A stretch of DNA of 33,197 bases. Source: Propionibacteriaceae bacterium (GTDB taxonomy: Bacteria; Actinomycetota; Actinomycetes; Propionibacteriales; Propionibacteriaceae). The notes under the pieces are model-generated. The model was not told the origin of the DNA. It saw nothing but the letters and a program-made list of their open reading frames with translations, and made no database searches. Positions 3,233 to 29,289 of the stretch are shown here, piece by piece. The position numbers and the translations under genes are program-made. The stretch spans positions 1-33,197 of the forward strand of contig JAISTC010000092.1 of NCBI GenBank assembly GCA_031272805.1, given 5' to 3'. Each line of letters begins with the position of its first letter. The stretch's first letter is position 1.

Positions 3233-3248
3233 TCCCCTGGGGGAGCTC

Positions 3249-3842
3249 ATGTTCGACCTGATTCTGCCCGCCGCCGACATCGTCGCCATCGCCGTGCTCG
3301 CGCTCGTGCTCTACTACCCGCGCCACCACCGCCACGACCTCACTCTGTCGTACCTGGCGGTCAACGTCGGCGTCCTCGGCGTCGCCACGGCGCTCGGCAC
3401 GACGAGCGTCAACGCCGGCCTCGGCCTCGGCCTGTTCGGCGTCCTCGCCATCATCCGGCTGCGCAGCCTCGAACTCGACCAACACGAGATCGCCTACTAC
3501 TTCACGGCGCTGGCGCTCGGCGTCATCGGCGGGCTCGGCGCGGACATGGGCTGGGCGGCCGTCGGGCTGATGGCCCTCATCCTCGTCGTCATCGCCATCG
3601 GCGACGCCGGGGTCTTCACGCGGCGCCAACGCTCGCAGGTCGTGGTCCTCGACCACGCCGTGACGGACGACGCGGAACTCCGGGCCCGGTTGGAGGACCT
3701 GCTCGGGGCCAAGGTCGTCGACGCCCGGCCGCGGCGCGTGGACCTGGTCAACGACACGACCGTCGTGGATGTGCGCTACGTCGTGGGCGTGGGGCGGCCT
3801 GTGGGCGCCGCGCCCGTGTCGCCTTTGGAGGTGCGGGCATGA
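3249..3842 (+). CDS. DUF4956 domain-containing membrane protein
   Basis: 197 residues from the ATG at 3249, preceded by GGGGGAG at a good distance. The start was chosen over the in-frame ATG at 3048 because the extra 67 residues are the translated leader. Four or so hydrophobic segments lie in the first 125 residues, including the DUF4956 hallmark GLFGVLAIIRLRSLELDQHE followed by IAYYFTALALGVIGGLG. A soluble C-terminal part of about 75 residues (from RRQRSQVVVLD) probably faces the cytoplasm. DUF4956 proteins are commonly encoded beside VTC-domain and CotH or Cthe_2159 genes, as here, but their biochemical role is not established. The stop codon overlaps the next start (ATGA at 3839-3842), indicating translational coupling. 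Confidence 0.88.
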   Translation: MFDLILPAADIVAIAVLALVLYYPRHHRHDLTLSYLAVNVGVLGVATALGTTSVNAGLGLGLFGVLAIIRLRSLELDQHEIAYYFTALALGVIGGLGADMGWAAVGLMALILVVIAIGDAGVFTRRQRSQVVVLDHAVTDDAELRARLEDLLGAKVVDARPRRVDLVNDTTVVDVRYVVGVGRPVGAAPVSPLEVRA

Positions 3843-8709: not shown

Positions 8710-8920
8710 GGCCGTCACGTTGTTGGATGGGCCCGCGTTGACGAGGGCCCCCTTGTGGGGCCCGAGGAGACGCAACTGTGTTTCCTCTCTTTGGCCTTGG
8801 TCTGGGGTGGGGATTGTTTCCCGTGGCGGCCGCGGTGTCGGGCCCCGTGGCTGTCGCTCGTTCCTCGCTCCGTAGCCACGGTGCCCGACCCCACGGCCGC
8901 GGGCCCCACGGCCGCGGGCC
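8710..8920 (+). repeat. Long direct repeat flanking RAYT, left copy
   Basis: Begins GGCCGTCACGTTGTTGGATG and continues through GGGCCCGCGTTGACGAGGGC, GGTGGGGATTGTTTCCC, GGCGGCCGCGG and a 59-bp element. Near-identical to 10046-10257 in the same orientation. Confidence 0.85.
8834..8892 (-). repeat. Family-1 hairpin repeat, copy 5
   Basis: 59 bp, GGTGTCGGGCC to GTGCCCGACCCC, core on the minus strand (CTCGTTCCTCG at 8857-8867). Confidence 0.9.
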
Positions 8921-8936
8921 CCACGGCCGCGGGCCG
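8889..8936. repeat. 17-bp tandem array beside family-1 copy 5
   Basis: Three tandem copies of CCCCACGGCCGCGGGCC directly abut the GGGGTCGGG end of the element (read on the minus strand). Confidence 0.85.
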
Positions 8937-8951
8937 CGTGACGTTGGGGCG

Positions 8952-9704
8952 CTAGGTTGGGCGTAACCAGCGGGTCACGATGCCGCGGGGCACGCCGGTG
9001 ATCCGCGCGATCTGGCGCTGGGTGGCACCGCGGGCCGCGAGGGCGGCCACGGCGGTCTTCTGGTCGGCGGTGGGCAGCGCGTGGAATGAGGCGGGGGTAC
9101 CGGTCCCGGTGAGATCCCGCAGCCAGGCCTCAGCCTCGGCGTCCTGGGGCCCCCGAACCCCGCCGGGCTCCGGGACGGGCGGAGCCACGGGGTGATCCTC
9201 ACGCTCCGTGATCGCGGCCAGCGGCGCGTAGCCGGCGAGCACGTCCGTGTCGACCAGACCCGGGGCTTGGCCCAGCAGGGACCGGCTGCTCCACGGGTAG
9301 GCCGCGGTGCTCGTGACCAGTCCAGCTTCGACCGGGTTGCGGTGGATGTAGGCGACGACGGCGGCGAAGTAGGCGTCGGTGGGGACCAGTTGGGAGCGGA
9401 AACGGCCGTCGAACAGGGGGCCGACTCGGTCGTACTTGGCGTTGAACCATTGGGCGTACTCGCCGGCGGCGCGGCGCATGAAGTCGGAGATGGGTTGGCC
9501 GCGCTGCTGGAGGAGGAGGTGGACGTGGTCGTCCATGAGGCAGAAGGCCAGGAGGGCGACGTGCGTCGCGGCCTTCGCGCGCGCGACGAGCTCGAGGAAC
9601 CGCCGGCGGTCCGCGTCGTCGTAGAACAGGGGGTGGCGGTCCAGGCCGCGGCACGTGACGTGGTAGATGCCGCTGGCGCCGAGTTGGCGTGGGGGGCGGG
9701 CCAT
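8952..9704 (-). CDS. REP-associated tyrosine transposase (RAYT, Y1_Tnp/IS200-like HUH fold)
   Basis: 250 residues from the ATG at 9704, with GAGGA upstream. The frame is open further upstream but that part is translated repeat. Motifs: SGIYHVTCRGLDRHPLFYDD near the N-terminus, FCLMDDHVHLLLQ with the HUH pair His60-x-His62, Tyr83 in AGEYAQWFNAKYDRVGPLFD as the candidate nucleophile, GRFRS, then YIHRNPVEAGLV and YPWSSRSLLG. The last 40 residues (AALAARGATQRQIARITGVP and WLRP) look like a helix-turn-helix. RAYTs nick single-stranded REP hairpins at their foot; they are single-copy domesticated relatives of IS200/IS605 transposases. Family-1 hairpins lie on both sides, as is usual for RAYTs and their cognate REPs. 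Confidence 0.9.
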   Translation of the reverse strand: MARPPRQLGASGIYHVTCRGLDRHPLFYDDADRRRFLELVARAKAATHVALLAFCLMDDHVHLLLQQRGQPISDFMRRAAGEYAQWFNAKYDRVGPLFDGRFRSQLVPTDAYFAAVVAYIHRNPVEAGLVTSTAAYPWSSRSLLGQAPGLVDTDVLAGYAPLAAITEREDHPVAPPVPEPGGVRGPQDAEAEAWLRDLTGTGTPASFHALPTADQKTAVAALAARGATQRQIARITGVPRGIVTRWLRPT

Positions 9705-9779
9705 AGGGAGTCCTCGGAGGTTGGGGGAGAGATGTCCCATTGTGGGCGCAGCGTCACGCCGTGGGCAAGTCGAGCGAGG

Positions 9780-9818
9780 CCATGGGGTCGGGCAAGCCAT
9801 GGGGTCGGGCGAGGCCAT
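9780..9818 (+). repeat. Tandem 17-18-bp units abutting family-1 copy 6
   Basis: CCATGGGGTCGGGCAAG and CCATGGGGTCGGGCGAGG precede the complete element, as at 7063. Confidence 0.85.
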
Positions 9819-9877
9819 GGGGTCGGGCACGCTGGCTACGGAGCGAGGAACGAGCGACAGCCAGCGGGCCTGACACC
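9819..9877 (+). repeat. Family-1 hairpin repeat, copy 6
   Basis: 59 bp, core at 9844-9854. Paired with minus copy 7 at 9938, 60 bases apart. Confidence 0.9.
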
Positions 9878-9937
9878 GTGGCCGGGGGTGTGAGTCTGTT
9901 GTGGTCAGGGGTGGGGATTGTTTCCCATGGCGGCCGC

Positions 9938-9996
9938 GGTGTCGGGCCCCGTGGCTGTCGCTCGTGCCTCGCTCCGTAGCCACGGTGCCCGACCCC
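9938..9996 (-). repeat. Family-1 hairpin repeat, copy 7
   Basis: 59 bp with one core change (CTCGTGCCTCG). Followed by CGACCCCGTGG-type half units to about 10030. Confidence 0.88.
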
Positions 9997-10045
9997 GTGG
10001 CCGCGGGTCTCGCGGTGCCCGACCCCGTGGCGGGGAGGTGATAGT

Positions 10046-10257
10046 GGCCGTCACGTTGTTGGATGGGCCCGCGTTGACGAGGGCCCCCTGGTGGGGCCCG
10101 AGGAGACGCAACTGTGTGTCTCTTCTTTGGCCCTGGGCGGGGGTGGGGATTGTTTCCCATGGCGGCCGCGGTGTCGGGCCCCGTGGCTGTCGCTCGTTCC
10201 TCGCTCCGTAGCCACGGTGCCCGACCCCACGGCCGCGGGCCCTACGGCCGCGGGCGC
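10046..10257 (+). repeat. Long direct repeat flanking RAYT, right copy
   Basis: Same order of blocks as 8710-8920, with small changes (for example CCCTGGTGGGG for CCCTTGTGGGG). The RAYT gene lies between the two copies. Confidence 0.85.
10170..10228 (-). repeat. Family-1 hairpin repeat, copy 8
   Basis: 59 bp, core CTCGTTCCTCG at 10193-10203; followed by ACGGCCGCGGGC tandem half units to about 10260. Confidence 0.9.
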
Positions 10258-10492
10258 CGCGGTGGCCGACCCTGTGGCCGCGGGGTCTAGGGCCGTGGGG
10301 CCTGTGGGTTTGTGGGGTGTGAAATGATTCATGATTGTGGTGTGGGGGTGTGGGGTTTTTTACTGGTGTGGGGGATTGCACACGGGTGGGGTTGTGGGGT
10401 TGGTCACAAATGGTGGGGGTTGATCTGATCTTGATGTTTGTTGGGGCTTGTCAGGGGCGGGTTGTTGAAACCTTGGGGGGCGTTCAGGTGAC

Positions 10493-10520: not shown

Positions 10521-10597
10521 CGATGGTTGAGTGCGCGGGGTAAGGGTGTCTCATCGCTGACCCCTCGGGCTTAACGAGTTCTCCTCAAGAATCGATG

Positions 10598-10604
10598 AAG
10601 GTGA
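10598..10604 (+). promoter_or_regulatory. Ribosome site deciding the start of the giant gene
   Basis: AAGGTGA lies 8-9 bases before the ATG at 10613, while nothing similar precedes the ATG at 10595. Confidence 0.6.
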
Positions 10605-10612
10605 CATTTTTC

Positions 10613-13600
10613 ATGCCGTGGCTTTCTTCTGCCAGTTCCACCTCTCCTACCGGCGCACCGCCGCAGCGCCGCTTCCGCAAGGCCCTGGCCTGGGTGGCCG
10701 CCCTGGCTGTTGCAGTCAGCGGCGTGACGCTGGCGCAGGAGACCGCGAGCGCCCCCGACGCTGCGGCCTGGAGCCTGAACGGCAACGGCGAGACCAACTG
10801 GGCCGCCCTGGGCGGCAAGTTCAGCCGGAACGTGCTGTACGGCACGCAGACCCAGGACGCTGTGAGCGGGAGCGTTTGGGGCGTCAAGGAGCCGTGGCAG
10901 GAGACCACCCAGTGGCCTGCCGACATCCGCTGGATCACGGGGAATGACAACACGGGCACTGGCCCGACGAGGGCTAACACCATTGCCGTGGGTCCGAACC
11001 CTGACAAGGACGGAGAACTGTCCCTCTTCAGCTGGAACGCGTACCCCAACAGTCGGCTCTACCGGACCGACTCCGACGGGACGGAGACCGATTACGGGGA
11101 ACTTCTCCATACGGCGGTGTTGGGCTGGAATAACCCGTACCTATGGGGCGGCGAGATGAACCAGAAGACGGGCCAGCTCTACGTCACGTCGAACTACACC
11201 GACAACCTGACGTGTGGCGATGGCAGCACCGCGGCGAGCAAGAACAGCACGGGCGGCAGCCTGAAGCTGGCCATCGTCAATATCGGGAAGAGCACCGACA
11301 AGACCAAGCTGTCGCTGGCCGCGTCGAGCGCTAGCGCGCCCACCGTTCGGCCCGGCGCGGACACCGTCTGCCGCACCGAGCGGCTCGTGAGCAAGGCCCT
11401 GGGCAAGGAGAACAATTTCACGACGTGGGACGTTGCCCCAGACATGGCCATCGACGCCGAGGGCAACCTCTATCTTTGGACGACCGCCAACGGCAACAAG
11501 ATCCACTACCTCATCAAGGTCGAACCGCCGCGCGAGGACGGCAAGGTCACGTCGGGCACCTGGTACTACACTCCGGTCCTGCGCTTCGACGGGACGGACG
11601 CCAAGAACTTCACCGATCCGAGCCTGGCCGGAAGTTTCCCCACCGCCCAGAACTTCGGCGGCATGGCCTTCCTCAACGGCGAGCTCTACCTGGCCACGTG
11701 GACGGGCGGCTACCAGGTCTGGCGGGTCAACCCGTTGACCGGGAAGGCCACGCGCCTCATGTCCGAAACGGAGGGCCGCTACCGCGTGCTTGACCTCGCC
11801 GGCGCGCAGATGGCCCCGGTCATCACGGGCAAGCTGTACATCGACGCCGACGGCGACGGCGCACTCTCCGACGACGAGAAGGCCGCGCCCGGCGTCCCGA
11901 ACGCGACCGTCGAGTTCTACCGCGCGTCCGACAACCAACTCCTGGGCTCGCAGACGACCAACCTGTCCGGCGAATACTCTGCCCTCCTGCCGCTGTCCGA
12001 TGGCACTGTCTACGTCCGCGTCAAGCAGCCCCAGATCGACGGGGTCAACGCCATGCAGACCTGGGCCGGCTACTGGAAGGGCAACGACGCGAAGGTGACC
12101 GATACGACCGGCCACAACGAGGTCAAGCCGGTCTGCGTGGCCGGCGGCTCCGACCACCAAGAGGTCGACCACGACACCGAATGCTACGGCGCGCTCCAGA
12201 GCGGCGTCGATCCGGACAGCGTGACGGATGCGGAGACCGAGGCGCTGTTCGTGTCCAAGGTCGTGATGCACACGGACATGGAAGTGCCGCACGCCGACTT
12301 CGCCTTTACCGTCAACGGCTCCTTCGGCGACGGCCCCACCTCCAAGGCGGCCGACGGCGGCCCGCAGCACATCAACCTGGCCAAGGACGAGCACGTCTGG
12401 CTTGGTACCACGCTCGGCGCCAACACGGACGGGACGAACAACGCCACGGCCGGCGATCACGACAGCGACGACGGCGTCTTCCTCCAGTTGGCGGACGGCT
12501 CGCTCGTGACCCTGCAGGGCCAGGTGTTCTCCGCCGGCCGCACGTACCCGGTCGTGGCCCACGTCACGGCTGACTCGAGCGATGTGCTGACCCGGGCGCA
12601 GATCGTGGGCTACTACCAGCCGGGCGTGACCGCGGGCTGGCGCGACGCCCAGGGCGGCATCGCGTCGGATGTCCAGGCGATCTTCGAGCAGTCGCCGCTG
12701 CAGAACGCCACGGCGACGACGCCCGCCACGGCCGAACTACTCGGCCAGATCGCGGCGCCCGCGGGCGTGAGCGGGGTCAAGGCCGGTCGCTTCCGCGCGT
12801 CCACGACGACGAGCGGCCAGTCCCTCGGCCCGGACAACGCCGACGGCCACTACGCGGCCAACGCGGCCAACCCCGGCCTCACGTGGGTGACGGACGGCGA
12901 GACCGAGGACTACGCCGTGTACACGGGCGGCGCGCAGGTTCGCATCGGCCTCCACGCGAACGGCGGCAAGACCCAGCCGACCCTCGGCTTCAAGGTAGGC
13001 AACGTGTCGAAGGACGCGCCGTCGTCCCAGACCGACGCGGTCACGGGCCAGAACGGCGTCACGGTCGTGTCGCCGCAGGCGCACCTGGTCGACAGTACGG
13101 CCAAGGCCACCACCATCACGATGGACAACCCCGCCGCCACGGGCTTCGAGTTCACCGGCGCCACCTGTAGCGACGTCCTGAGCGGCCAGTCGGTCCAAGC
13201 CGATCTCAGCACGAGCAGCAGCGGTCAGCCCGTGGTCACGATCCCGGCGGGTCAGCTCGCGGACGACCACAACGACGTCCTCTGCACGTTCACCGTCCAG
13301 AAGCCGGCCGACGCGGCCCTGTCCACGCTGACGCTGACCCCGACTGACGGCACGGCCGACGTCGGCGAGTTGATCACGCTGACCGTCACGGCCCAGGCCA
13401 GCGAGGGCGGCGAGACCGTCCTCGTGCCCGGCACGGTCGTGACGTTCACGAAGGCCCAAGGCCTGACGCTGTCGGCCGACTCCTGCGTGACCGGCCAGGA
13501 CGGCACGTGCTCCGTCACCGTGACATCACAGACCGCCGGCACGTACACGAATGGCATCGGCGCGTCCATCAAGGGCGACAAGGTCGGCGTCGGCTCGCCC

Positions 13601-16600
13601 GCGACCGTCACGTTCCAGGATCCGACGCCGGATCCGGACAAGACGACGCTGGAGATCCACAATCCCGGCACGGTCGGCGAGCCGCTGCCGCTGACCATCC
13701 ATCTCCGCGATGGGGCCAACCGCCCGCTGTCCGGCCTGGCCAAGGAGGCGTTCACGGTCTCCGGCCAGTCCCAAGCCGACAGCTTCAAGTTCCTCGCCAC
13801 AACGGACGTGGCGGAAGACCCGCAGCACCCCGGCGACTACGTCGTCAACCTGACCGCGGACCTGGCCGGGACGTACCTCGTCTCCGTCACGGTGGAGCCG
13901 TGGAGCCAGCCGAAGACGGTCCAGGCGACGTTCAACCCCGGCGCCCCGGACGCGAGCCAGTCCTCCATGACCGTGGACCGCGACGAGCAGACGGTCGGTC
14001 AAGACATCATGGTCACCCTCCACGTCCGCGACAAGAACGGCTATCCGGTCACGGGCCTGGAGCGGGCCGGCGTGCGCGGCAACGGCTACGAGGGTGACTA
14101 CCACATCACCGCCACGCTGACGTCCGACGCATCGGTCTGGCAGTACGTCCTCTACCGCCAGCCCGTCGACGGCTACCCCGGCGACTACCGCGCCACTCTC
14201 AACACCACGGTCGCGGGCACGTACCACCTCGTCGGCTATGTCCACGGCGTCCCCGACGTCGAGATCGACGGCCCCGAGGTCACGTTCACCACCGGCGGCT
14301 ACTGCACGTCCGGCGCGAACTGCGGTACGGCCGTCGGCCAGATCGACCCCAACGACGCCGACAATGACGGTGTCGCCGAGGACAAGGCTGTCGTCCACGT
14401 GACGGACCAGTTCGGCAACCCGAAGCAGGGCGTCATGGTCGGCTCCACCGGCCTCTACACGGGCAACGCGCCCGCCAGCAACACTGTCGTCCAGACCGTC
14501 GAGACCGACGAATTCGGCAACGCCACGCTGGCGTGGGTCTCGACGCAGCCCGGCACGTTCAGCGCCGACCTCTACCTGGACGGCGCCAAGTGGCAGACGC
14601 TCGGCGACATCCGCTTCCAGACGACCGGGGCGAACGCCCAGCAGAGCCTCTTGACCGTCCGGACCCCGGCCGGCCGTGACGTGGTGGACCCGGCCGGCGA
14701 CGGCACCCCGGCGACGACGATCGGCGTGGGCGAGTTCTACACGGCCACGGCGACGGTCAGGGACGGCACGAGCAACCTGCTCCAGGGCGTGACGGTGTCG
14801 TTCAGCGCGGGCGGCGGCCAGTTGTCCGCCGCCACCTGCGTGACCGGTCAGGACGGCACCTGCCAGGTGACGGTGACGGCGACCAAGCCCGGCAAGGTCC
14901 TGTTGTACGCCAAGGTCACCCAGGGCAGCGTGGCCAAGTCGATCGCGAAGAGCCCGGCCACCCTCGGCTTCGCGGCGGGCGACGTCTGCGTCCAGAACTG
15001 CTCGGGCCAGGACGCCCAGCACAAGACCCACGTCGCCGTCACGCAGAAGACGGCCACGGCCGACGGCCAGGACCTGGTCGAGGCGACGCTGTACACCTAT
15101 GACACGTACGGCAACCCCGTGGCGGCCGCCTGGACGACCACGCCCGGGACCAACCTGACCGCTGTCGCCACCGCCGGGACGACCGACGCGACGACCGGTC
15201 AGAGCGTCCTGCAGTACAAGACGACCTACTCCGGGACCCGCCAGGCGAGTGTCCAGGTCAACGGTCAGACGGTGACCGGCTCGCCGGTCGAGTTCGAGTT
15301 CGGCGTCGGCCACGCCAGCCAGGTCACGCTGACCGCCGACCCGGCCACCGCCGTCCCGGTCGACGCGGCCGATCCGACGTTCACACTGACGGCGACCGCG
15401 ACTGACGCGGCGGGCGCCAAGGTCCCCGGCACGGCCGTAGAGTTCGCGGCGGTCGATGTCCTCGACCCCAGCAACAGCCTGACGTTCGTCGGCGGCAAGA
15501 ACACGTGCATGACCGGCAACGACGGCACGTGCTCCGTCCAGGTCACGACGACCGTCCCCGGCACCTACCAGGCCGGCGCGACGTTCGCGGGCGACCAGGC
15601 GGCCAGCGGCACGCCCAAGCTCCAGTTCACGGCCGGCGGCGTCTGCACGGACGACTGCCAGCCGGGCCATCAGACCACGGTGACGATGACCACGAACGGC
15701 GCCAAGCCGGACGGCACGGCGTCCGACGAGGCCCAGGTCCAGGCGTATGACAAGTTCGGCAACCCCGTGTCCGGCCTCGTGGTCTCGGCCCAGCAGAACG
15801 GCGGCCACGAGATTACGGTCCAGCCGATCGCGCCGACCAATGTCTACGGCCAGACGGTCATCCGGTTCACGTCCACGCAGGGCGGCGCCTTCCCCGTCGA
15901 CGTCCTGGTCGGCAGCGCCAAGCCCCAGGGCTCGCCGCTGACGGTCAGCTTCGGCGACGGGCTGGCCGACGCCGCCCGGTCGCAGCTCGTGGTGACGCCG
16001 ACGACGGCCCTGCCCGTCGGCACGGGCCCGGCCTCGACCTTCACGGCGACGGCCACGGTCCACGACGTCAACGACAAGCCGGTCAAGGGCGAGATCGTCC
16101 AGTTCGCGCTCGCCCCGTCCGGCCCGGCCGCCAGTGCGACCTGGTGCCAGACCCAGGACGACGGCACGTGCCAGGTCACGCTGACCGCGACCCAGGCCGG
16201 CACGTACACCGTGACCGCGACCATCCACGGCACGGCGGACACGATCGGCACGGCCGACCTCCGCTGGACGGCGGGCACGGTCTGCGCGGCCGCTGATTGC
16301 GCCCAGCCGGGCGTCGACGCGGCCCACCGGACCCACGTCCAGATGACCACCAACAACCAGGTGGCCGACGGTCAGCAGCAGGACATCGCCACGGTCTACG
16401 CCTTCGACGCCTACGGCAACCCGGTGGCGAACGTCGCGTTCTCGGTCGCGGCCAAGGACGCCACGGACGACCAGTTCACGGTCGTGACGGATTCGGGCCA
16501 GACCAGCGCCCAGAACCCCGGCTACGGCCAGGCGACGGCCGCGTTCACGGCCACGGGCGCGGGTCAGCACAGCGCGATCGTCACGATCGACGGCCACGAC

Positions 16601-19600
16601 TTCGAGGTCACCCCCGCGTTCAAGCCGGGCGACCTGGACAACGCCCACCTCTCGGCCAGCCCGATGTCGACCACGGTCGGCCAGCGGGTGACGATCACCG
16701 TCGAGGTCCACGACGCCAATGAGAACCCGATCACGGGCCTCCACGCGGGCGACTTCAATGTCAGCGCCAAGGACGCGGCCGGCCACGACCTGGCCGTGCA
16801 GCCCTTCTCCGCGCTGGGCAACGGCTTCTACACGTGGGAGATCACGTCGAACGTCGCCGGCTTCGCCACGGTCGGGGCCGAGGTCAAGGGCATTCCGGCC
16901 CTGACGAGGGACAAGACGCCGGCGACGACCATCAACCCGTACTTCGCGGCGGGCGGCGTCTGCGTCCTCAACTGCCAGCCGACCGACCCGAGCCACGTCA
17001 CGCGCGCCGTCGTGACGCAGAACAACCAGTTGGCGAACGGCCAGGACCAGGACAAGGTCACGGTCTACGCCTACGACGCCTACGGCAACCCGAAGTCGGG
17101 CGCGGTCGTGACGGCCAGCGCCGTCGACGGCCTGACCCCGGCCTGGGACACCACCCAGACCGTCACGACCAACGACCAGGGCCAAGCCCAGCTCGCCTGG
17201 ACGGCGACACAGGACGGCTCCTACACGCCGATCATCGCGGTCGACGGCAGCTACGGCTTCGCCGGCTCGTTCGACAGCAAGCTGACGTTCGTGGCCACGG
17301 AGGTCAAGCCTGACAACACGAAGTCGACCCTGCAGGTCATGGCGACCAACGGCCTGACCGCGCCGATCGAGGTCGGCCAGGCGTACCGCGCCGTGGCCAC
17401 GGTCCACGACGCCAACGACCAGCCGCTCAACGGCGCCGTCGTCACGTTCGAGGACGTCACGGGCGGGCTGACGCTGCTGGCGCCGACCTGCACGACGAGC
17501 GAACAGGCCCCCGACGGCCCCGGCACCTGCCGCGTCACGGTCCGCGCGACCGCGCCCGGCACGTACCAGGTCGGCGCCACGGTCGTCGTCGCGGGCCAGC
17601 CCAAGGCCCTGCAGGGCTCGCCCGCCGAGGCTCAGTTCACGGCCGGTGCCGTCTGCCTCAAGGACTGCCAGGGCGACGGCAACCCGGACCACGTCACCCG
17701 CGCCGCCGTGACCAAGAACGACGCCCAGAGCGACGGCGTCTCCTATGACACGGTCGAAATCCGGACGTACGACTACTACGGCAACCCGGTGGCGGCCAAC
17801 TGGACGCTCGAGGCGCCGCGCGAGGTCACCCCGACCGCGACCTCCGGCACGACCGGCAACGGCCTCTCGACCGTCAACTTCACGTCGAAGATCCCGCCGT
17901 CCCACGCCGTCCATGTCCTCATCAACGGCCAGGACATCACGGGCTCCCCGGTGACCGTGGCGTTCGCCCGCGGCGTGGTCGACCCCGACCAGGTGACGCT
18001 GGCGGTCAGCCCGACGCCCGGCCCGATCGAGGTCAACGCGCGCTACACGCTGAAGGCCCGCGCGCTCGACAGCCAGGGCCACGCCATCTACGGTGCGGAC
18101 GTCGTCTTCACGGCGGACCAGCCGGAGCTGACGTTCCAGGGCGACGCCCAGAACGGCCACGTCCACTGCGTCACGGACGAGGACGGCTACTGCTCGGTCA
18201 AGGCCCTGTCGACCAAGGCCGGCGACTACCACGTCACCGCCACGTTCGACCAGCGCGCCACCCGGGAGGCCGACCTCGGCTTCCACGCCGGCGCGGCCTG
18301 CGCGGACAACTGCCAGGGCACCCAGACGAGCGTCGAGACCGTCCGCAACGGCGTCAACCCCGACGGCCAGCAGCGCGACCACTTCCGCGTCTCCGCCTAC
18401 GACTACTACGGCAACCCCGTCCGCGGCGCCCTCGTCACGATGACCGTCAAGGGTGGGCCCGACTCGGCTCAGGTCCAGGTGACCGAGCCGACCATCCTGA
18501 CCGACGCCAGCGGCGTGGCCCAGGTCTACGCGACGTCGACCGCCGCGGGTGTCTTCACGGCCGACTTCGCGCTGGACGGCGTGACGGTCGCCCGGGACGT
18601 CCTCGTGACGTTCGGCAACTTCGTCGTGGACCCGGACAAGTCGAGCTTCAAGATCACGGCGGCCGCCGGCGACCCGGTCTCGACCAACGGCCCGCTGCCG
18701 GTCGGCACGGGCGCGGAGTCGAGGTACACCGTGACCGCCACGGTGCTCAGCTCGACCGGCGACGGCATCAAGGACGCCATCGTCTGGCTGTCGACCAACG
18801 GCCCGACCCTGGCGGAACCCAAGTGTGTGACCGGCAGCGACGGTAAGTGCTCCGTCGACTTCTGGTCGACGGCCGCGGGCACGTTCCAGGTCACGGGCAA
18901 CGTCCAGCAGATGCCGAAGACGGTCGAGGCGACGTGGACCGCGGGCGGGCTGTGCCTGCCCGGCGACCTGACGACGCCGCAGGACCTGCCGGATGACCGC
19001 CGCACGCGTGTGGCGGTGACGACGGACGGCCGTCCGGCCGACGGGTCGACCAAGGACGACGTCACGGTCTACGCCTACGACTGCTTCGGCAACGCGCTGG
19101 CGGGCGTCCCCGTGACGGCGGCGCCGTCGACGGGCGAGACGGACGCCATCATCGCGTCCGTCATCAACCCGACGTCCGCCGAGTCGGCCCGCCGCGGCCA
19201 GACGACGTTCGGCGTGGCGTCCCGGACCGCCGGGCTCCACCATGTCGACGTCACGGTCGGCGCGGCCGACGCGCGGACGGTGTTCAACAACGTCGAGCTC
19301 AACTTCACGGCCGGGCAGTTCAGCGCCGCCCAGTCCACGGTCGCGGCCAACCCGTCGACCCAGACGGTGGGCGGCAACATCGTCCTGACCGTGACCGCCA
19401 AGGACGCCCACGGCAACCTCGTGTCGAGCCTGGTGAAGGACCAGTTCGAGGTCGTCATCAGACCAGTCGGCGGGGGCCAGCCGCTCGTCGCCACGGCCAT
19501 CCCGGACGGCCGTCCCGGCCTGTACCCGTTCAGCGTCACCAGCCAGGTGGCGGGCGAGTACCAGGCGACCGTGACCGTGCTCGGCCAGACGCTGGCCGAG

Positions 19601-22600
19601 CAGCCGGTCTTCGAGTTCACGGCCCGCGGCGTCTGCGTCAGCAACTGCGCGGCGACCGACCCGGCCCAGCAGACCCGGATCGAGATCACGGACAACAACA
19701 AGCTGGCCAACGGCCAGGACCAGGTCAAGGCGACTCTCTACGCCTTCGACACGTTCGGCAACCCGGTGGCCGGCGCGACCGTCACGGCGGCCGCCGACCA
19801 GGCCGGCCTGACGGTGGCGGGCGCCGCCGAGACGAAGACCCTGGCCAACGGCACGGCCCAGCTCGCCTGGAGCGCGACGAAGGCCGGCCAGTACACGTCG
19901 ACCGTGACGGTCGGGCAGGCCGTCCTCAGCGCCGGCCCGCTGAACTTCGGCTCCGCCGGCGTCGACCTGACCCGCTCGACGTTCGTCGTCACGGCCCCCA
20001 ACGGCCTGACCCCGCCGCTCACGGTCGGCCAGCCGTATGCGGCCAAGGCCACCATCCAGGACGCGGGCGGCCAGCCCGTCCAGGACGTCATCGTGACGGT
20101 CGAGGCCGACGAGCCTGGCGTCGACGGCCTGCCGGCGACCTGCCAGACGGGCCTCGACGGCACCTGCCAGGTCGTCATCCGGTCGAAGACCGCCGGGACG
20201 TTCCACGTCCGCGGCCACGTCCCGGCCGGCGAGCTGCCCGGCAGCCCGCAGGCGATCAGCTACCAGGCCGGCGCGCTGTGCGTCAAGGACTGCACCCCGA
20301 CCGACCCGGCCAAGGTCACGCAGGCCCAGATCACGCGCAACTCGGCTGTCGCCGGGCTGGCCTACTCGGCCACCGACCCGCGCAGCTACGACGAGGTCGT
20401 CATCTCGGCCTACGACACGTACGGCAACCCGGTCCGGGCCGACTGGTCCGTGACCCCGGCCAGCGCCGCCCTCCACCCGCTGGACAACGCGGGCACGACC
20501 GGGGCCGACGGCCGCTCGGCCGTCCGCTTCACGTCGGACTACTCCGGCCAGCACCTGGTCACGATCAAGGTCGGCGGCGAGTCCGTGGTCAACCTGTTGG
20601 CCGAGCAGGGCGAGTCCCTGTCCGAGCTCAAGCTGGCGTTCGCCGCCGGCGTCATCCACGCCGGCGACGTCACGGTGACGCCGGACGACGCCCAGGCCGC
20701 GGGCCGCGCCTTCACGGTCAAGGCCCACGCCACCGACCTGGCCGGCTCCGACATCTACGGCACGGACATCGTGTTCAAGTCGGATGCTGCGGTCACGTTC
20801 AGCGCGGGCCACTGCGTCACGGGCGCCGACGGCCGCTGCCAGGTCACGGCCACGTCGAAGCAGGCCGGCGACCACACGGTGACGGCGGTGTTCGACAACG
20901 CCATCGCGGTCGACAAGACCATCACGTACACGGCCGCGGGCGTCTGCGTCAGCGGCTGCGAGACCGACACGCCCGGCACGGGCGGCGGCGACGCCGCCCG
21001 CCAGACGCGGGTCGTCGTCTCCAAGAACGGCGCCAAGCCGGACGGCCAGGCCGTCGACGTCGTCGACGTCTACGTCTTCGACACGTACGGCAACCCGATC
21101 CAGGGCCTGACCCCGTCGGCCAGCGGCGCGGACGTCACCATCGCGGGCCGCATCGCCCAGACCGACACCTCCGGCCACACGCAGATCCGGTTCACGTCGC
21201 TGGTCGCGGGCGACCACTACGCCGACATCGACGTGGCCGGGCAGGAGCCGAACGGCTCGCCGGTCAAGCTCGCCTTCGGCGAGGGCCAGGGCGCGGCGGC
21301 CAACTCGTCGTTCCGCGTGACGCCGCAGGGCCCGCTGCCCGCCGGCACGGACAAGGCGTCGGCCTACACTCTGACCGCCACGGTCAACGACATCTACGAC
21401 AAGCCCGTCAAGGACGCCGTCGTGGACTTCACGGCGACCTCGGCCGTGACCGCGGGCGTGGTCGGCTCGACCGGCCCGGCCTGGCCGCAGGGCCAGACCT
21501 GCCGGACGGATGCCACGGGCACCTGCTCGGTCACGCTGACCTCGACCAAGGCGGGGACCTACTCGGTCCAGGCGGCCACGGCGGGCGATCCGATCGGCCA
21601 GGCGCAGTCCGTGACGTGGACGGCCGGGGGCCTCTGCGATGAGAGCTGCACGCCGGAGGGCGGCGACGCGACGCCGCACAGCCGCGTCGAGGTCGTGGCC
21701 GACAACCAGCCGGCCGACGGCCACTCGCTCGACCAGGTCCGCGTCTACGCCTACGACGCCTACGGCAACCCGATCTCGGGCCTCGAGGTGACGGCGACCC
21801 CGCAGACCGGCGACCAGGGCCTCGTCGTCCAGTCGCCGATCACCCGGACCGGCCTGGGCGGCCACCCGGCCGGCCAGACGACCATCACGTTCGCCAGCGC
21901 CAAGGCCGGGACCCACAAGGTCGACATCACGGTCGGGGGCCTGTTGCCCCACGGCTCGCCCGTCGACCTCGGCTTCACGGCCGGGGCCTTCGACCCGGCC
22001 ACGTCCAGCGTGACCGCGTCCCCGGCGACGCAGAAGGTCGGCGGCACGGTCACGCTCACCCTGGCCGCGCGTGACGCCTCGGGCAACGCGCTGACCGGCC
22101 TGACGTCCCGCGACATGATGATGGCGGGCCTGACCGCCGACGACGGCCCGCTGGACCTGATCGGCGTCAACTGGCGGACCGACAACAAGGGTTCCTACAT
22201 GACCGACGTCTCGACGACGACGGCCGGGAAGTTCCAGGCGTTCGTCCGCGTCCTCGGCCAGACCGTGGCCGACCAGCCGGAGTTCGAGTTCACGGCGGGC
22301 ACCAACCCCTGCTTCGTCAACTGCTTCCCGGCCGACGAGAGCCACGTCACGCGCGTCGAGGTCACGACCGACAACGCCACCGCCAACGGCAAGGCCCGCG
22401 ACATCGCCACGGCCTACGTCTACGACGCCTACGGCAACCCGCTCAAGGGCGTGGCCGTGACGGCGTGGGCGCCGGAGCTGGAGAGCGCCGCGCAGGCCGG
22501 GACCACCGGCGCCGACGGCACGGCCCAGTTCTCCTGGACCGCCACGAAGGCCGGGACGTACACCGTCCACACGACGATCAACCAGACCGGCAGCGGGTTT

Positions 22601-25600
22601 GCGGGCGCCACGCTCGGCGTGACCTTCGTGGCCACGCAGCCCGACGCGACCCAGTCGTACCTGACCGTCGCCCCGCCGGCCGGCCAGACCGCGCCGATCA
22701 GCGTCGACACGCCGTACACGGCGACCGTCCACGTGCTCAGCGCCGACGGCCTGCCCGTGGCGGGCGCCCAAGCCGCGTTCCGGACCATCGCGCCCGGCCG
22801 CTTCACGGGCAACGGTTTGCTCGACACGACCTGCACGACCAAGGACGACGGCACGTGCGCCGTCGGCATCACGAGCTCCGTGGCCGCCGACTTCGGCGTC
22901 GCCGCCACCCTCACGGTCAACGGCCAGCCGACCGAGGTCAAGGACTCGCCGCAGCAGCTCTCGTTCAAGGCAGGCGGCCTCTGCGTCGCCGGCTGCACGC
23001 CCAAGGACCCGGCCAACAAGACGCGCGTCGAGCGCGTCAGCAACGGCGCCGAGGCCGACGGCATGGCGACCGACGAGGCGATCCTGTACGCCTACGACAA
23101 GTACGGCAACCCGCTGTCGCTCGACTTCGCAGTCCAGCCCAGCCAGGGCCTGACCGCCCTGACGCCGTCCGGCCGGACCGGCGCCGACGGCACGGCCCGC
23201 CTCGCCTTCACGGCGACGTCCGGCGGCCAGTACACGGCCGACGTCACGGTCGGCGGCACGACGGCGCCCGGCTCGCCGCTGAACCTCGGCTTCACGGCCG
23301 GGGCTCCGGCCAAGGTGACGCTGTCCGCGGCCGCCACGACCGCGCCGGCCGACGGCTGGATCACGCTCAAGGCCCACGCCGAGGCGGCGTCGGGCGACGG
23401 CGTCGAGGGCGTCGTCGTGACGTTCGAGGCGGCCGGCCTGAGCTTCGGCAACGGCCTCGACTCCTGCTCGACGCTGGTGACCGGCGACTGCACGGTCCGC
23501 GTGACGTCGGCCAAGGCCGGGACCTTCCCTGTCCACGGCTTCTGGACCGGCGCCGAGCTGGTCGGCAGCCCGCTGGACGTCACGTTCACGGCCGGGTCCG
23601 TCTGCGCCGGGACCTGCGTCCCGGACGCCGGGCTCGACCCGGCGCTGACGACCCACGTCGAGGTGGCGTACAACGGTGCGCTGGCCGACGGGGTCGAGGC
23701 CGACCAGGTCCGCGTCTTCGCCTACGACAAGCACGGCAACCCCGTGGCCGGCGTCAAGGCGACGGCCGCCGGGCCGCGCCACGTCACGGCCGCGGCGGCC
23801 GACGCCATCGCGCCGACCGACGCCAACGGCACCACGCTGGTCAACTTCACGGCGGACAAGCCGGGCTTCTACGAGGTCCAGGTGACGGTCGCCGGGCAGG
23901 CGCCCGCCTACCCCGTGACCATCGGCTTCGGCGGTGGCCAGGGCGACGACACGCACTCGACCTTCACGCTGACGCCGGCCTCCGGCGACGTGTCCGCGCC
24001 GCTCGCGGTCGGCAGCGGCGTGGCCCACCAGTACCGGGCCGCCGCCGTCGTGCGCGACCTCTTCGACGAGCCCGTCAAGGACGCCGTCGTGACGTTCGCC
24101 CTGACGCCGGCCGGGCCGGCCTGGGTCAAGGCGCCCGCCGGGTCGCCGGAGGGCCAGACCTCCTGCCGGACCGACCGCAAGGGCCGGTGCGAGGCGCTGG
24201 TCGAGTCGACGGTCGCCGGGACGTACCTCGTGACGGCGGAGATCGCCGACGGCTACGTCGGCCAAGCCGAGACGGCGACGTGGACCGCGGGCGACATCTG
24301 CGGTGAGGGCTGCACGCCCGACGACGCGGCCAAGGCCGCGGGCCACGTCACGAAGGTCGCGGTCGTGACCGACGGCCAGCCGGCCGACGGCGCGGCCACC
24401 GACCTGGCCAAGGTCTGGGCCTACGACCAGTACGGCAACCCCGTCGTGGGTGTCCCGGTCGACTCGACCGCCGCCCGGCCCGCCTCGTTGCGCGTCCAGC
24501 CCGGCATCCGGGCCACGGACGGCGACGGCACGTCGACCATCGCCTACGCCTCGACCGAGGCGGGCGTCCTCAAGGCGACCGTCTTCGCGGACGGCGTCCA
24601 GCCGGCCGGCTCGCCCGTCAACCTGACGTTCACGGCGGGCGACGCCTGCGTCGGACTGTGCGCGCCGGACGCCGACGTGCCCAACTCCCGGCGCAGCCGG
24701 ATCGAGGTCGCGGCCGACGGCGCCTTCGCCGACGGGGTCGCGGCCGACGTGGTCGACGCCTACCTGTTCGACCGGCTGGGCAACCCCGTGACCGGGGTGG
24801 CCATCGCCGGGCTGGGCGCGGCGGGCGCGTCGTCCGGGCTGACCGCCGTCGGCGGCGACGTCCTGACCGACAACGCCGGCCACGCGCGGCTGTCGTTCAC
24901 GTCGACGGTCGCCGGGGAGCGGCTGGCGCGGGTCGTCGTCGCCCAGACGGGCGCCGACATCCAGTTCACGCCGCAGCCCGACGTGGCGGCGCCGGCCGGA
25001 TCCCAGTCGTCGCCGGTCGCGTTGCACTTCGTGTCCGGGGCGCCCTGCGTCGGGGACTGCGTGCCCGGCTCGGATGTCCCGAACTCGCGCCGCAGCCGCC
25101 TGCAGGTCAACCCGGACTACCAGTCGACGCGGCCGGACGACCACGACCTCGTCCACGTCTACGTGTTCGACCAGATGGGCAACCCCGTGGCGGGGATCCC
25201 GGTGGTCGTCAAGACCGACGACAGCGCGCTGTCCGTCGCCGACTCGATCGAGCCGACCGACGCGTTCGGCCACACGATCGTGGCGTTCGCGTCGCGGGTC
25301 GAGGGCGAGCACGAGGCGCGGATCTTCATCCTGGTGTCCGAGGCGGAGAACGAGATGACGTTCACCCCGGCGCCCGGGCCGATCCCGGTCGAGATGACCG
25401 GCTCGCCCGCCACCGTCCACTTCGTGGACGAGGACACGCCGAACGCGCCCGTCATCACCGGGCCGTCCAGCGGCGACCTGCTCGGCGACTCGGAGGTGAC
25501 GTTCTCCGGTACCGGCTCCGAGGCGGGCGACCCCGTCACGATCATGGACGGCGACACGGCCGTCTGCACGACGACGGTGAAGACCGATCTGACGTGGTCC

Positions 25601-28600
25601 TGCACGGTCGACATCGCCGGCGGTGCGGCTGGGTCTTCGGATGGCTCGCATACCTACACGGCGGTCGAGACCAACCCGTCGAACCACCCGTCCGAGCCGT
25701 CCGCGCCGGTCACGGTGACCGTCGACACGACGGCGCCGGACGCGCCCGTCGTGGTCCAGCCCGCTCCCGACCAGGCCGTCGACAGCCAGACGCCGGAGTT
25801 CGCCGGGACGGCCGAGCCCGGCTCGACCGTCGAGGTCAGGGACGGCGACGAGGTCCTCTGCTCGGCCCTGGTCGGCGCCGACGGGACCTGGAGCTGCCGC
25901 CCGAGCCTGGACGAGGGCCCGCACGAGTTGGTCGTGACCGCGACCGACCCGGCCGGCCACACGTCCGACGGCACGACCGTGGAGATCACGGTCGACGTGA
26001 CCCCGCCCGACGACTCGCTGCTGGCCATTACGACGCCCGCCGACGGCTCGGTCTCGACCGAGAACGGCATCGTCATCGGCGGCACCGCCGAGCCCGGCGC
26101 GACCGTGACGGTGTCCGAGGGTGGCCAGACGCTCTGCACGGCGACCGCCGATGCCAGCGGCGCGTGGACCTGCGAGGCCTCGACCACGTTCGACGAGGGT
26201 TCCCACACCCTGGTCGTCGTCCAGACGGACCCGGCCGGCAACGAGGGCAACCCGAAGGTCCAGACCTTCGACGTGGACTCGGACGCGCCTTCCTCGCCCT
26301 TGGTGGATCGGCCGGCGCCGTCTTCCGAGGGCACGGCCAACCTCGAGCCGCCGACGGTCTCCGGGACCGCCGAGCCGGGGTCGAAGGTGACGGTCGATGC
26401 CGGCAACGGCAACCTGTGTGTGGCCGAGGCCGACGATCAGGGGGCGTACTCCTGCACGCTGCCCGACGCGCTGCCGGACGGGGAGGACGTGACCATTACG
26501 GTGACGGCGACCGACCCGGCCGGGAACGACTCCGACCCGACGGTCGTGACCGTCACGGTCGACAACACCGCGCCGGACGCGCCGGTCGTCCTGTCGCCGG
26601 CCGAAGGCTCGACCCTCGACGTGGCCGACCCGGTCGTCAACGGCACCGCGGAACCGGGCTCGTCGGTCACCGTGGTGGTCGACGGCAAGGTGGTCTGCAG
26701 TGTCGAGGCCGACGCCGTCACGGGGGAGTGGAGCTGCGACGAGCTGCCCGCCCTGGACGACGGTGCCCATGCCATCAGCGTGACGGCGACGGACCCGGCG
26801 GGCAATGAGTCCGTGCCGGTGGTCGTCGTCGTGACGGTCGACACGGAGCCCGAGCCGGGTGAGCCGACGGAGCCGCCTTTGCCGCCTGCGCCGCCGGCGC
26901 CGCCGGCCGCGCCGGTCGTGGAGAAGCCGGCCGACGGCCAGCCGATCAACACGGACCAGCCGACGGTCTCCGGGACCGCGGAGCCGGGGTCGACGGTGAC
27001 GGTGACGGACGATGCCGGGAACAGCGTGACCTGTTCGGCCGATAACGTCACGGGCCATTACGAGTGCACGCTGCCCGGGACCGAGCCGCTGGACGACGGC
27101 GATCACACGATCACCGTGACGGCGACCGATCCGGACGGCAACGTGTCGGACGAGACGACGGTCACGGTGACGGTCGATACCGAGGCGCCTGTGGCGCCGA
27201 CGGTCGACTCGCCGCGGCCGTCGGAGGACGGTACCGCCAAGCTGGACCCGCCGACCGTCGCCGGGACGGCCGAACCGGGCTCGACCGTGACGGTGGACGC
27301 CGGCGACGGCAACAAGTGTGTGGCGGAAGCGCAGGCGGACGGGACGTACTCCTGCACGCTGCCGAACACGCCTGACGACGGCTCCGACGTGACGATTAGC
27401 GTGACGGCGACCGATCCGGCGGGCAATGTGTCCGATTCGACCGTGATCGACGTGACGGTCAAGAACACGGACGATGAGCCGGTTGACCCGACCCCGCCGA
27501 CTCCGCCGGCCGCGCCGGTCGTGACGAAGCCCGCCGAGGGCGAGCCGATCAACACGGACCAGCCGACGGTCGAAGGGACCGCCGAGCCGGGGTCGACGGT
27601 GACGGTGACGGACGATAAGGGCAATTCGGTGACGTGCGAGGCGGACAAGGCCGGCCATTACGAGTGCACGCTGCCCGGGACCGAGCCGCTGGACGACGGC
27701 GATCACACGATCACGGTCGTGGCGACCGATCCGGCCGGCAACGTGTCGGACGAGACGACGGTGACGGTGACGGTCGATACGGAGGCGCCGGGTGCGCCGA
27801 CGGTGATCAAGCCGCAGCCGGGTGAGTCGATTGACACGGATCAGCCGACGGTCGAGGGCACGGCGGAGCCGGGCTCGAAGGTGACGGTGTCCGACGACGC
27901 GGGTCATTCGGTGACCTGCGAGGCGGACAAGGCCGGCCACTACGAGTGCACGCTGCCCGGTCCTTTGGACGACGGCGATCACGAGATCACGGTCGTGGCA
28001 ACCGATCCGGCCGGCAACGTGTCGGACGAGACCAAGGTCGGCGTGACCGTGGACACCAAGCCCACGCCCTCGCCGAGCCCGACGCCCAGCCCGTCGCCGA
28101 CGCCGAGCCCGAGCCCGAGCGTGACGCCGAGCCCGAGCGTGACGCCGAGCCCGAGCCCGAGCGTGACGCCGACTGCTGACGTGACGCCGAGCGTGACGCC
28201 GGAGGCCACGGTGGAGCCGAGTGCCGAGCCGACCGCCGAGCCGACGGCGACGCCGAGCGCGGAGCCGACGGCGACCGCGACGGCCAGCCCGAGCGTGACC
28301 CCGACGGCGCCGAGCGTGCCGACGGTCGACACGTCGGACGACGCCACGGTGTCGGGTGCGGCGGAGCCGGGTGCGAGCGTCGTCATCACGGACGAGAACG
28401 GCAATGTTCGTTGCGAGACGAAGGCGGACGGCAGTGGTGCGTACTCCTGCACGCCGGCCCAGCCGTTCGAGCCGGGCGACCGGGTGACCGTGACGGTGAC
28501 CGACGAGCATGGCCAGACGGCCGCGAAGACGGTGCGCGTCAAGGCGGTCACGGTGACGGCGGCGACGGTCCGGCGCGGCGCGGAGCAGACGGCCACGGGC

Positions 28601-28915
28601 CGGTACTTCGAGCCGGGCGAGAAGGTGCGCGCGATCATGCACTCGACGCCGGTCGACCTCGGCGAGGCCGTGGCGGACAAGGACGGCGTGGTGACCGTGA
28701 CCTGGACCATCCCCATGGGGGCGGACCTGGGCGCGCACGACGTCACGCTGATCGGCGAGACGTCGGGTCTGGGCAAGGCGGAGTTCACGGTGGCCGACAC
28801 GCTGAAGGTCACGGGCTCGCTGGTCAACCCGACCGAAGTCGGCGCCGGCGCGTTGTCCCTGCTGATCGGCTGCCTGCTGCTCTTGGCAGCAGCCCGCCGC
28901 CGCAAGGAGGACTAA
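10613..28915 (+). CDS. Giant secreted multi-domain Ig-like (Big-1) surface protein, about 6,100 residues
   Basis: I place the start at the ATG at 10613 because AAGGTGA lies 9 bases before it; the in-frame ATG at 10595 has no ribosome site. A Sec signal (RRFRK then an apolar core) ends near Ala47. Residues about 50-403 look like a beta-propeller ([48 protein letters not shown]). Residues 406-473 resemble an SdrD/CnaB-type domain with the Asp-rich loop DADGDG. Residues 563-773 fit a GEVED-like region ([11 protein letters not shown]). From about 902 come Big-1-like domains, including eighteen GNP-type units with paired cysteines (nt 14294-25439). About ten Ig-like domains ([11 protein letters not shown]) follow, then a Pro/Ser/Thr linker (28057-28320), a domain containing [20 protein letters not shown], and an apolar segment plus RRRKED. 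It is probably an adhesin anchored at the cell surface; its ligand is unknown. Confidence 0.9.
14294..16950 (+). repeat. Higher-order repeat block 1 (units A-B-C-D)
   Basis: Contains GNP motifs at about 14411 (A), 15107 (B), 15755 (C) and 16412 (D). The B unit reads YGNPVAAAW, the C unit NGAKPDG, and the D unit is followed by a cysteine-free half domain with QxVG-type wording ([20 protein letters not shown]). Confidence 0.8.
16951..19624 (+). repeat. Higher-order repeat block 2 (units A-B-C-D)
   Basis: GNP motifs at about 17081 (A, with LANGQDQ), 17777 ([10 protein letters not shown]), 18407 (C, NGVNPDG) and 19085 (D, here the variant FGNALAG). The closing half domain reads [20 protein letters not shown]. 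Same phase order as block 1, offset 2,652-2,673 bp. Confidence 0.8.
19625..22296 (+). repeat. Higher-order repeat block 3 (units A-B-C-D)
   Basis: GNP motifs at about 19754 (A, LANGQDQ), 20419 ([10 protein letters not shown]), 21086 (C, NGAKPDG) and 21761 (D, NQPADG). Closing half domain [20 protein letters not shown]. Confidence 0.8.
22297..24635 (+). repeat. Higher-order repeat block 4 (A-B-C-D, last half domain missing)
   Basis: GNP motifs at about 22430 (A, TANGKARD), 23102 ([10 protein letters not shown]), 23731 (C, HGNPVAG) and 24431 (D, GQPADG). The cysteine-free half domain that closes blocks 1-3 is absent; the sequence passes straight into the short terminal units. Confidence 0.78.
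24636..25439 (+). repeat. Two short terminal units of the Big-1 array
   Basis: Units with LGNPVTGV (about 24776) and MGNPVAGI (about 25175), each with a Cys pair and the shared wording DVPNSRRSR. They are only about 115-135 residues each because the second half domain is missing. Confidence 0.78.
25440..28056 (+). repeat. Tandem Ig-like domains (GTAEPGS type)
   Basis: About nine consecutive domains of roughly 85-100 residues, each with a P.V..P....GTAEPGS.V.V pattern, a Cys pair (C.A..DG.W.C or C.AD..G.Y.C) and VTATDPAGN before the next; a tenth follows the linker. The copies at 26920-27185 and 27520-27785 are nearly identical at DNA level. Confidence 0.82.
28057..28320 (+). repeat. Pro/Ser/Thr/Glu low-complexity linker
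   Basis: Tandem codons for PSPTPSPSP- and PSVTPSPS-type units, then [14 protein letters not shown]. About 88 residues that would span the wall as an extended stalk. Confidence 0.85.
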
Positions 28916-28926
28916 GCCCAACCAAC

Positions 28927-28964
28927 GCAGAGGAGGCCGCGGGACACCCCGCGGCCTCCTCTGC
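28927..28964 (+). terminator. Terminator hairpin after the giant gene
   Basis: GCAGAGGAGGCCGCGGG pairs perfectly with CCCGCGGCCTCCTCTGC (17 bp) with a 4-base loop, beginning 12 bases after the stop. There is no T-run, as often in high-GC actinobacteria. Confidence 0.8.
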
Positions 28965-28972
28965 GCACATGA

Positions 28973-29041
28973 GGCCGAGGTGTCGGATGCCGCGGCCTTG
29001 GCGAGGAACGAGCCCGGGCGGCGGCATCTGATACCTCGGCC
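28973..29041 (+). repeat. Family-2 69-bp hairpin repeat
   Basis: Left arm GGCCGAGGTGTCGGATGCCG and right arm ending CATCTGATACCTCGGCC are inverted. The loop contains CGAGGAACGAG (29002-29012), the same core as family 1. Confidence 0.88.
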
Positions 29042-29063
29042 GGTGGGGATTGTGTGTGGGGGC

Positions 29064-29171
29064 GGCCGCGGTATCAGGTTCCCCCGCCTGGTCCTGCGAC
29101 TCCGGCGCTGGCGCGCCTCCGCGCAGGATGACGTGTGCCTCGCCAAGGCGGGGGAGCCTGACACCTCGGCC
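29064..29171 (-). repeat. Family-2 repeat interrupted by a family-3 repeat
   Basis: Arms GGCCGCGGTATCAGG (29064-29078) and CCTGACACCTCGGCC (29157-29171) match the intact copy at 30436. In the loop lies the 44-bp family-3 element 29091-29134, replacing GCTCGTT of the intact loop. Confidence 0.85.
29091..29134 (-). repeat. Family-3 repeat inserted in a family-2 loop
   Basis: From GTCCTGCGACTCCGGCGC to GCGCAGGATGACGT. Identical over more than 40 bases to 31291-31334. Confidence 0.85.
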
Positions 29172-29217
29172 TGGGCTGACACCTCGGCCGCTGTGGCAGA
29201 CACTCCCGCCGGGCCAC

Positions 29218-29276
29218 GGTGTCGGGCCCGCTGGAGATCGTTCGTGCCTCGCTCAGTAGCCAGCGTGCCCGACCCC
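29218..29276 (-). repeat. Family-1 hairpin repeat, copy 9 (diverged loop)
   Basis: 59 bp, GGTGTCGGGCC to GTGCCCGACCCC; loop GATCGTTCGTGCCTCGCTC is changed at several bases. Confidence 0.82.
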
Positions 29277-29289
29277 ATGGCCCTGGGGC

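Follow-up and report, generated by a model that had tools for sequence, protein, structure and literature searches.

The 33,197-nucleotide contig JAISTC010000092.1 of a Propionibacteriaceae bacterium (assembly GCA_031272805.1), analysed over its whole length and called the window below, carries on its plus strand a gene for a giant surface protein of 6,106 residues (10595..28915), recognised from its open reading frame, its translation and Pfam matches to Big_1, Invasin_D3, Big_6 and Big_13. The question raised by this locus is whether the long stalk of the protein is a string of like immunoglobulin (Ig) domains or is put together from a larger unit. A first-pass annotation, made from the letters alone, had proposed that 16 units with GNP-type motifs form a four-phase block (A, B, C, D) present four times, and that the gene grew by repeated duplication of this block. 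On sequence evidence, the block can be identified as an old cassette in which eight invasin-like Ig domains follow each other as Db-Aa-Ab-Ba-Bb-Ca-Cb-Da. This block, rather than the single domain, looks like the building part for these bacteria, because it recurs, with its order unchanged, in other giant proteins of relatives.

The four-phase arrangement of the units was borne out. All 16 GNP motifs were located within 1 base of the positions given for them, and the 12 spacings between neighbouring units of the same phase calculated from those positions were 2,643-2,682 bp, in keeping with the 2,642-2,683 bp that had been claimed. FGNA at 14513 was rejected as a unit start, being a chance motif. 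Pairwise protein identity among the units ranged from 26 to 48%, with means of 40.5% at a lag of four units, 38.0% at lag 8 and 38.9% at lag 12, and of 32.8-34.8% at lags 1-3, 5-7 and 9-11; lags 13, 14 and 15, which hold 3, 2 and 1 pairs, gave 34.9, 30.6 and 37.8%. The period-4 contrast was reached by none of 5,000 label shuffles, by identity and by score alike. Periods 3, 5, 6 and 7 gave no signal in the label-shuffle test of the 16 units, and periods 2 and 8, a divisor and a multiple of 4, were reached by 13 and 91 of 5,000 shuffles by identity. The best match lay in the same phase for 15 of the 16 units, the exception being B4, which preferred A3. The maximum-likelihood tree of the units needed three phase changes, which is the minimum and a value reached by none of 200 shuffles, and the four phases each had a single origin, with support of 99/98 for B, 88/92 for C, 86/85 for A and only 54/88 for D; A1 was placed on a long branch. 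The wording ascribed to the phases held less evenly. YGNP followed by a small residue and W or F occurred in all four B units, ANGQ or ANGK in three of the four A units, and PVGTG or PAGTD in three of the four C units (C4 reads AVGSG), while the second half-domain of D was cysteine-free in all three copies and carried QxVG in two of them (D1 reads TTVG).

The expectation that a self dot plot would be strongest at about 2.67 kb rather than 0.67 kb was upheld for protein words and codon-aligned DNA and failed for exact DNA words. Shared protein 4-mers reached 6.95 per 10^4 cells at 890 residues and 7.88 at 1,780, compared with 4.53 at 222; the densities were 5.21 at 2,002 and only 3.74 at 2,670 residues. 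Codon-aligned nucleotide identity was 59.0% at lag 4 versus 53.7-56.4% at lags 1-3, 5-7 and 9-11, a difference reached by none of 10,000 shuffles. The first-pass annotation had held that stronger diagonals at 0.67 kb than at 2.67 kb would speak against the block, and on its face this is what exact DNA 14-mers gave, with densities of 0.39, 0.31 and 0.72 at 0.67, 2.67 and 5.34 kb, respectively. Nine of the 16 exact DNA matches of at least 18 bp, including four of the five at about 0.67 kb, lie in shared DxYGNP words. Exact DNA words are strongly affected by this shared motif, and no clear recent duplication is visible from them. The DNA tandem-repeat search, with periods of up to 500, showed no repeat at 0.67 or 2.67 kb.

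Each GNP unit consists of two domains, “a” and “b”, with D4 a half unit that is followed by two Da-like GNP domains. In the register of the first-pass annotation, placed by unit comparison and domain splitting on the plus strand, block 1 (A1a to D1b) spans 14288..16957, block 2 (A2a to D2b) 16958..19630, block 3 (A3a to D3b) 19631..22306 and block 4 (A4a to D4a), which stops after the first half of D, 22307..24643. The stalk contains 31 domains in these four blocks, plus further Ig domains recognised by Pfam. The GNP motif belongs to the “a” domain, whose entry linker has a cysteine pair in 15 of the 16 copies (C-x3-C in 13; D2 lacks it). Among the “b” domains, all 12 from phases A, B and C contain a cysteine pair (spaced C-x7-C in 11) and the three from D contain none, so that 27 of the 31 block domains possess a pair. 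The cysteine-free Db domains are D1b (16634..16957), which opens the next cassette, D2b (19319..19630) and D3b (21989..22306), all on the plus strand. Two Db-like Ig domains also stand ahead of the first cassette (about 13616..14287, from the domain calls).

The cassette was followed into other genomes. Searching with block 2 gave matches in 17 of 96 genomes (the window's own included) and in 2 of 35 genera. At E ≤ 1e-20, a 19-row profile matched 24 of 198 genomes of the family (again including the own genome) from 3 of 29 genera, with several partial matches among them, and across the phylum, among 396 genomes drawn, only the window's own genome matched at E ≤ 1e-40. Among named genomes, block 2 alone as the query found no relative among 32 stretches; an alignment query found 34 loci, 33 titled as Propionibacteriaceae metagenome-assembled genomes and one as Actinomycetes. 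The sample codes Emb289, Lab288, Nt197 and Cu122 are given in one source as higher termites (PMC7024585), and an Md513 genome is described as coming from the gut of Mastotermes darwiniensis (PMC12483993); a termite-gut origin is thereby shown for part of the set only.

The order of the domains was examined in 45 giant proteins, the window's included, taken from the stretches around many, not all, among the matches listed. When the domain models came from the window only, relatives followed the order in 73 of 100 steps out of domains Aa to Cb (both domains above 8 bits). Refined models were built from 42 cassettes, 19 of 61 rows being left out because fewer than 690 columns were filled; in the 61-row tree several rows were runs of Db-like domains in shifted register. 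With these models, the order was kept in 288 of 306 strong steps out of domains Aa to Cb across the 45 proteins, and 44 complete cassettes were found in 29 of the proteins from 17 genomes. Sixteen proteins had no complete cassette, at least five of them because the cassette runs off the contig. The best match in another genome lay at the same cassette position for 282 of 294 domains of the 42 cassettes, and for 25 of 28 window domains, the misses being Da domains that matched Ca. Cassette identity between genomes was 29-74% (mean 40.5% over 811 pairs), and twelve cassette cysteine columns were kept at 90-100%. The second genus (g9) provided a cassette array in a genome left out of model building (G225; loci L119/L120, contig C54), although its congener G049 was included: a reading frame of 7,577 residues contains three cassettes in order with a period of ten domains, Bb being weak. 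In a relative's protein at L070 (G013:C269), an alternating Da-Ba run, a simpler two-domain repeat, was observed in place of the cassette.

The junctions separated a constant interior from variable flanks. The 264 interior junctions of the complete cassettes had gaps of -9 to 23 residues, which means that no domain was inserted at any of them. The domain that follows Da varied (Ab 15, Da 14, Db 10, Ba 4 and Bb 1), and extra domains between cassettes fell between Da and the next Db. The cassette period ranged from 8 to 11 domains between proteins and was constant inside the three arrays of at least three cassettes (8, 8, 8 in the window; 9, 9 in G017; 10, 10 in G225). The next called domain upstream was Db-like for all 44 complete cassettes, often with a weak score. 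Because a Db-like domain precedes every one of them and the extra domains sit between Da and Db, the register opens with Db. The four-phase unit of the first-pass annotation is real, with its natural start moved to the cysteine-free half-domain of D (Db-A-B-C-Da).

The claim of growth by whole-block duplication was supported as well. In a tree of 50 cassette rows, each over 500 bits, the four window cassettes formed one group set against 45 cassettes of other genomes (support 98/71, or 98/93 when a cassette from contig C82 of this genome is included), in which block 1 branched first, then block 4, then block 2 with block 3. Grouping within the own protein was also found in G225 (three cassettes), G005, G008 and G049 (two each), with support of 100/99 or 100/100. 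The simplest reading of this tree would be that whole cassettes multiplied separately in five lineages, the window's included; homogenisation inside a gene could mimic such grouping, although in this gene the other blocks share no more than 36-43% identity with block 2. Cassettes of G006 and G017, and of G016 and G018, paired across species, which dates those multiplications to before the species split, and the two cassettes each of G001:C1 and G002:C4 fell in different clades, which suggests the joining of unlike cassettes. Copying of the whole block in this gene is supported, while the block itself is older and occurs across the genus and in a second genus. As a yardstick, the PurB protein of the window genome was 68-77% identical to that of 11 congeners, the whole gene having been found in 11 of 12 searched.

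Fold predictions placed these domains nearest to those of invasin. Pfam assigned the middle of the protein to Big_1, Invasin_D3 and Filamin-type Ig domains and its end to Big_6 and Big_13; scores in the two protein halves were 433.1 and 434.5 bits for Big_1 (cut-off 34.9) and 248.2 and 165.4 bits for Invasin_D3 (cut-off 33). By sequence alone, a profile matched invasin (1cwv) at 2.6e-18. Structure models were made from window sequences only (15 for three domains and 4 for eight domains). The three-domain model, with a predicted local distance difference test score (pLDDT) of 89.8 and a predicted template modelling score (pTM) of 0.68, had invasin 1cwv as its first PDB match (E 1.2e-12, query TM-score 0.43 over three linked domains); its first solved matches were invasin, FdeC and filamins, with InvD and intimin lower down. 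The cassette domains are accordingly modelled as an invasin-like fold.

The protein is likely a wall-anchored stalk. Its C-terminal tail (28802..28915) consists, by translation, of LKVTGS, a hydrophobic stretch, RRRKED and the stop, and the TG-hydrophobic-RRR tail was also present in many relatives where the C-terminal end was available. Three sortase genes lie elsewhere in the window genome. Between the last cassette and this tail are an extra Da-like GNP domain (24644..25042), a second one (25043..25474, end approximate), both from motif and domain calls, a Big_6/Big_13 Ig array (25475..28051, ends approximate, from Pfam) and a Pro/Ser/Thr-rich spacer with tandem repeats (28052..28309, from translation and tandem-repeat search), all on the plus strand. 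The N-terminal signal and head region (10595..13054, plus strand) gave only weak DUF6923-like and GEVED-like Pfam matches below the cut-offs, SpaA_4, a prealbumin-like fold, being just above; no close solved structure was found for the head (best E 0.55), and part of the region was 42% identical to a stretch of G008.

From these comparisons, which bring out the order of the domains, its conservation across genomes, the variable number of domains outside the cassette and the grouping of the four window cassettes, we infer the reason for the fixed order. The explanation that we favour, and hold to be reasonably probable, is a wall-anchored giant stalk built of whole, old, ordered cassettes whose neighbouring domains fit each other. 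The stalk, probably fixed to the cell wall, would be assembled from whole copies of Db-Aa-Ab-Ba-Bb-Ca-Cb-Da, each copy forming one rod segment. The specific fit between neighbours is suggested by the constancy of the cassette interior beside its variable flanks, and with such a fit the length of the stalk would change through gain or loss of cassettes and spacer domains rather than of single domains within a cassette. The cysteine pairs of most domains may form stiffening disulfides, a sortase presumably fixes the C-terminus, and the N-terminal head would be carried outward by the stalk.

Several observations weigh against this explanation. Order among the 44 cassettes is true by definition, because “complete” demands it, and the position matches, cassette calls and junction counts all lean towards order, because completeness was defined by order and the models were built from selected cassettes. 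Eighteen of the 306 strong steps were out of order, some of them in other arrays or at contig ends. Two of the four window cassettes (A3, A4) were counted as complete though their first domain was called Ba, three of the four window Da domains matched Ca elsewhere, the Cb place of G001:C9 was called Db, and many Db calls were weak (15-60 bits), the Db model deriving from three window copies. The eight-domain model (891 residues) had a pLDDT of 80.3 and a pTM of 0.34 and was not used for geometry. The anchor sequence LKVTGS is not a canonical LPXTG, and no adhesive head domain scored above the Pfam cut-off in the N-terminal pieces. The fixed order could also be inherited history without present constraint, which makes up the main rival: the order would come from one ancestral cassette copied by in-register unequal crossing-over, without functional need. 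In-register recombination between cassettes would keep the order without selection, and the pairing of cassettes across species (G006/G017 and G016/G018) implies that number changes are slow there; yet the flanking single Ig domains vary widely while none entered the 264 interior junctions at a mean identity of 40.5%, and whole cassettes group inside their own protein in five cases. We regard this rival as possible though not probable.

Rather less probable, in our judgement, is that the order serves periodic ligand binding, with binding sites at certain cassette positions that are regularly spaced by repetition. Conservation among the non-window genomes was higher for Aa, Ca, Cb and Da (43-45%) than for Ab, Ba and Bb (38-39%), and spacing was constant within an array. 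A strict position-specific filter was passed by P and W in Aa and L and W in Cb, of which the window lacks only the P; that only four residues passed also counts against the favoured explanation. A spacing of 8-11 domains between arrays misfits one common lattice, however, and the analysis identified neither a ligand nor a binding residue. That the tandem copies are recent, or that the repetitive gene was misassembled, was brought to mind by exact DNA matches of up to 31 bp and by the draft state of the genome (239 contigs), but blocks 1, 3 and 4, with 36, 43 and 37% identity to block 2, have diverged too far for recent copying or collapse, and the same architecture recurs in other genomes, which makes this reading extremely improbable.

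Other features were observed around the gene and in its genome. On the minus strand, a 5,250-residue frame (13526-29278) lies antisense to the giant gene with codons in register; it was rejected as a gene, its openness being explained by the codon usage of the sense gene, in which TTA, CTA and TCA together occur just three times and never beyond 13526. An IS200-like (Y1_Tnp) transposase gene (8952-10160, minus strand, within 8889-10299) is flanked on either side by tandem copies of the 15-mer CCCCACGGCCGCGGG and may be of the type associated with repetitive extragenic palindromes (REP). Genes for DUF4956, a VTC domain and Cthe_2159 stand side by side at 3048-6957. More giant open frames (about 2,300-4,240 residues) with DUF11 matches are present on contigs C229, C129, C57, C202 and C226 of the same genome (G000).

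The giant protein shares with fibrillar adhesins a long stalk of Ig-type domains, and a survey of these adhesins treats stalk-domain combinations (PMC8286594). It resembles the stalks of invasin, FdeC and intimin (PDB 1cwv, 4e9l, 6tpl) in domain fold and in Big_1 and Invasin_D3; unlike them, it is actinobacterial, probably wall-anchored, rich in cysteine pairs and organised in a higher-order repeat, and no beta-barrel family was found among its Pfam matches. The nearest actinobacterial giant Ig-domain surface protein found was the Mobiluncus mulieris adhesin, described as having 7,651 residues and 51 Ig-like domains, with a disulfide in one domain (PMC10619420). That adhesin has ester- and isopeptide-bond Ig domains and a thioester head, and the part of the account used here does not mention an ordered super-repeat. 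As in Periscope Proteins, tandem domains, whose number would set the reach, form a stalk, but the repeats reported there are highly identical (PMC9704523), and judged by the divergence of its units and blocks the giant protein is not one of them. The titin A-band offers a parallel in organisation: its giant chain repeats a set of several domains in unchanging order, with equal positions alike, and is reported to have grown by duplication of whole super-repeats (PMC10665226). Titin consists of Ig and fibronectin type III domains in muscle, whereas the cassette is bacterial and made of invasin-like Ig domains, is shared by many different proteins with a varying number of spacer domains between copies, and has no known partner filament. 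Literature searches, covering titles and abstract openings of the best matches and few subscription papers, found no ordered Ig cassette in bacterial surface proteins; a search on Ig-like surface proteins of termite-gut Propionibacteriaceae found no papers.

The stronger idea of a bacterial titin, in which the cassette would act like a ruler, its domain order specifying a defined shape and binding positions at even spacing, and in which whole cassettes would be gained or lost to adjust reach and valency across a family of giant surface proteins in these Propionibacteriaceae, is speculative, and we consider it unlikely as a whole. A common picture of bacterial Ig stalks is that of interchangeable beads on a string, and a domain caller that reports just a Big_1 array overlooks the cassette layer, as the first-pass annotation had pointed out. 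In the complete cassettes of 17 genomes an order of eight beads has been kept while the sequences drifted to about 40% identity and the flanks gained and lost single domains. If this order is under selection, the multi-domain cassette would be the unit by which these proteins are built and lengthened, and its natural variants would provide a ready set for testing neighbour-to-neighbour fit in long stalks.

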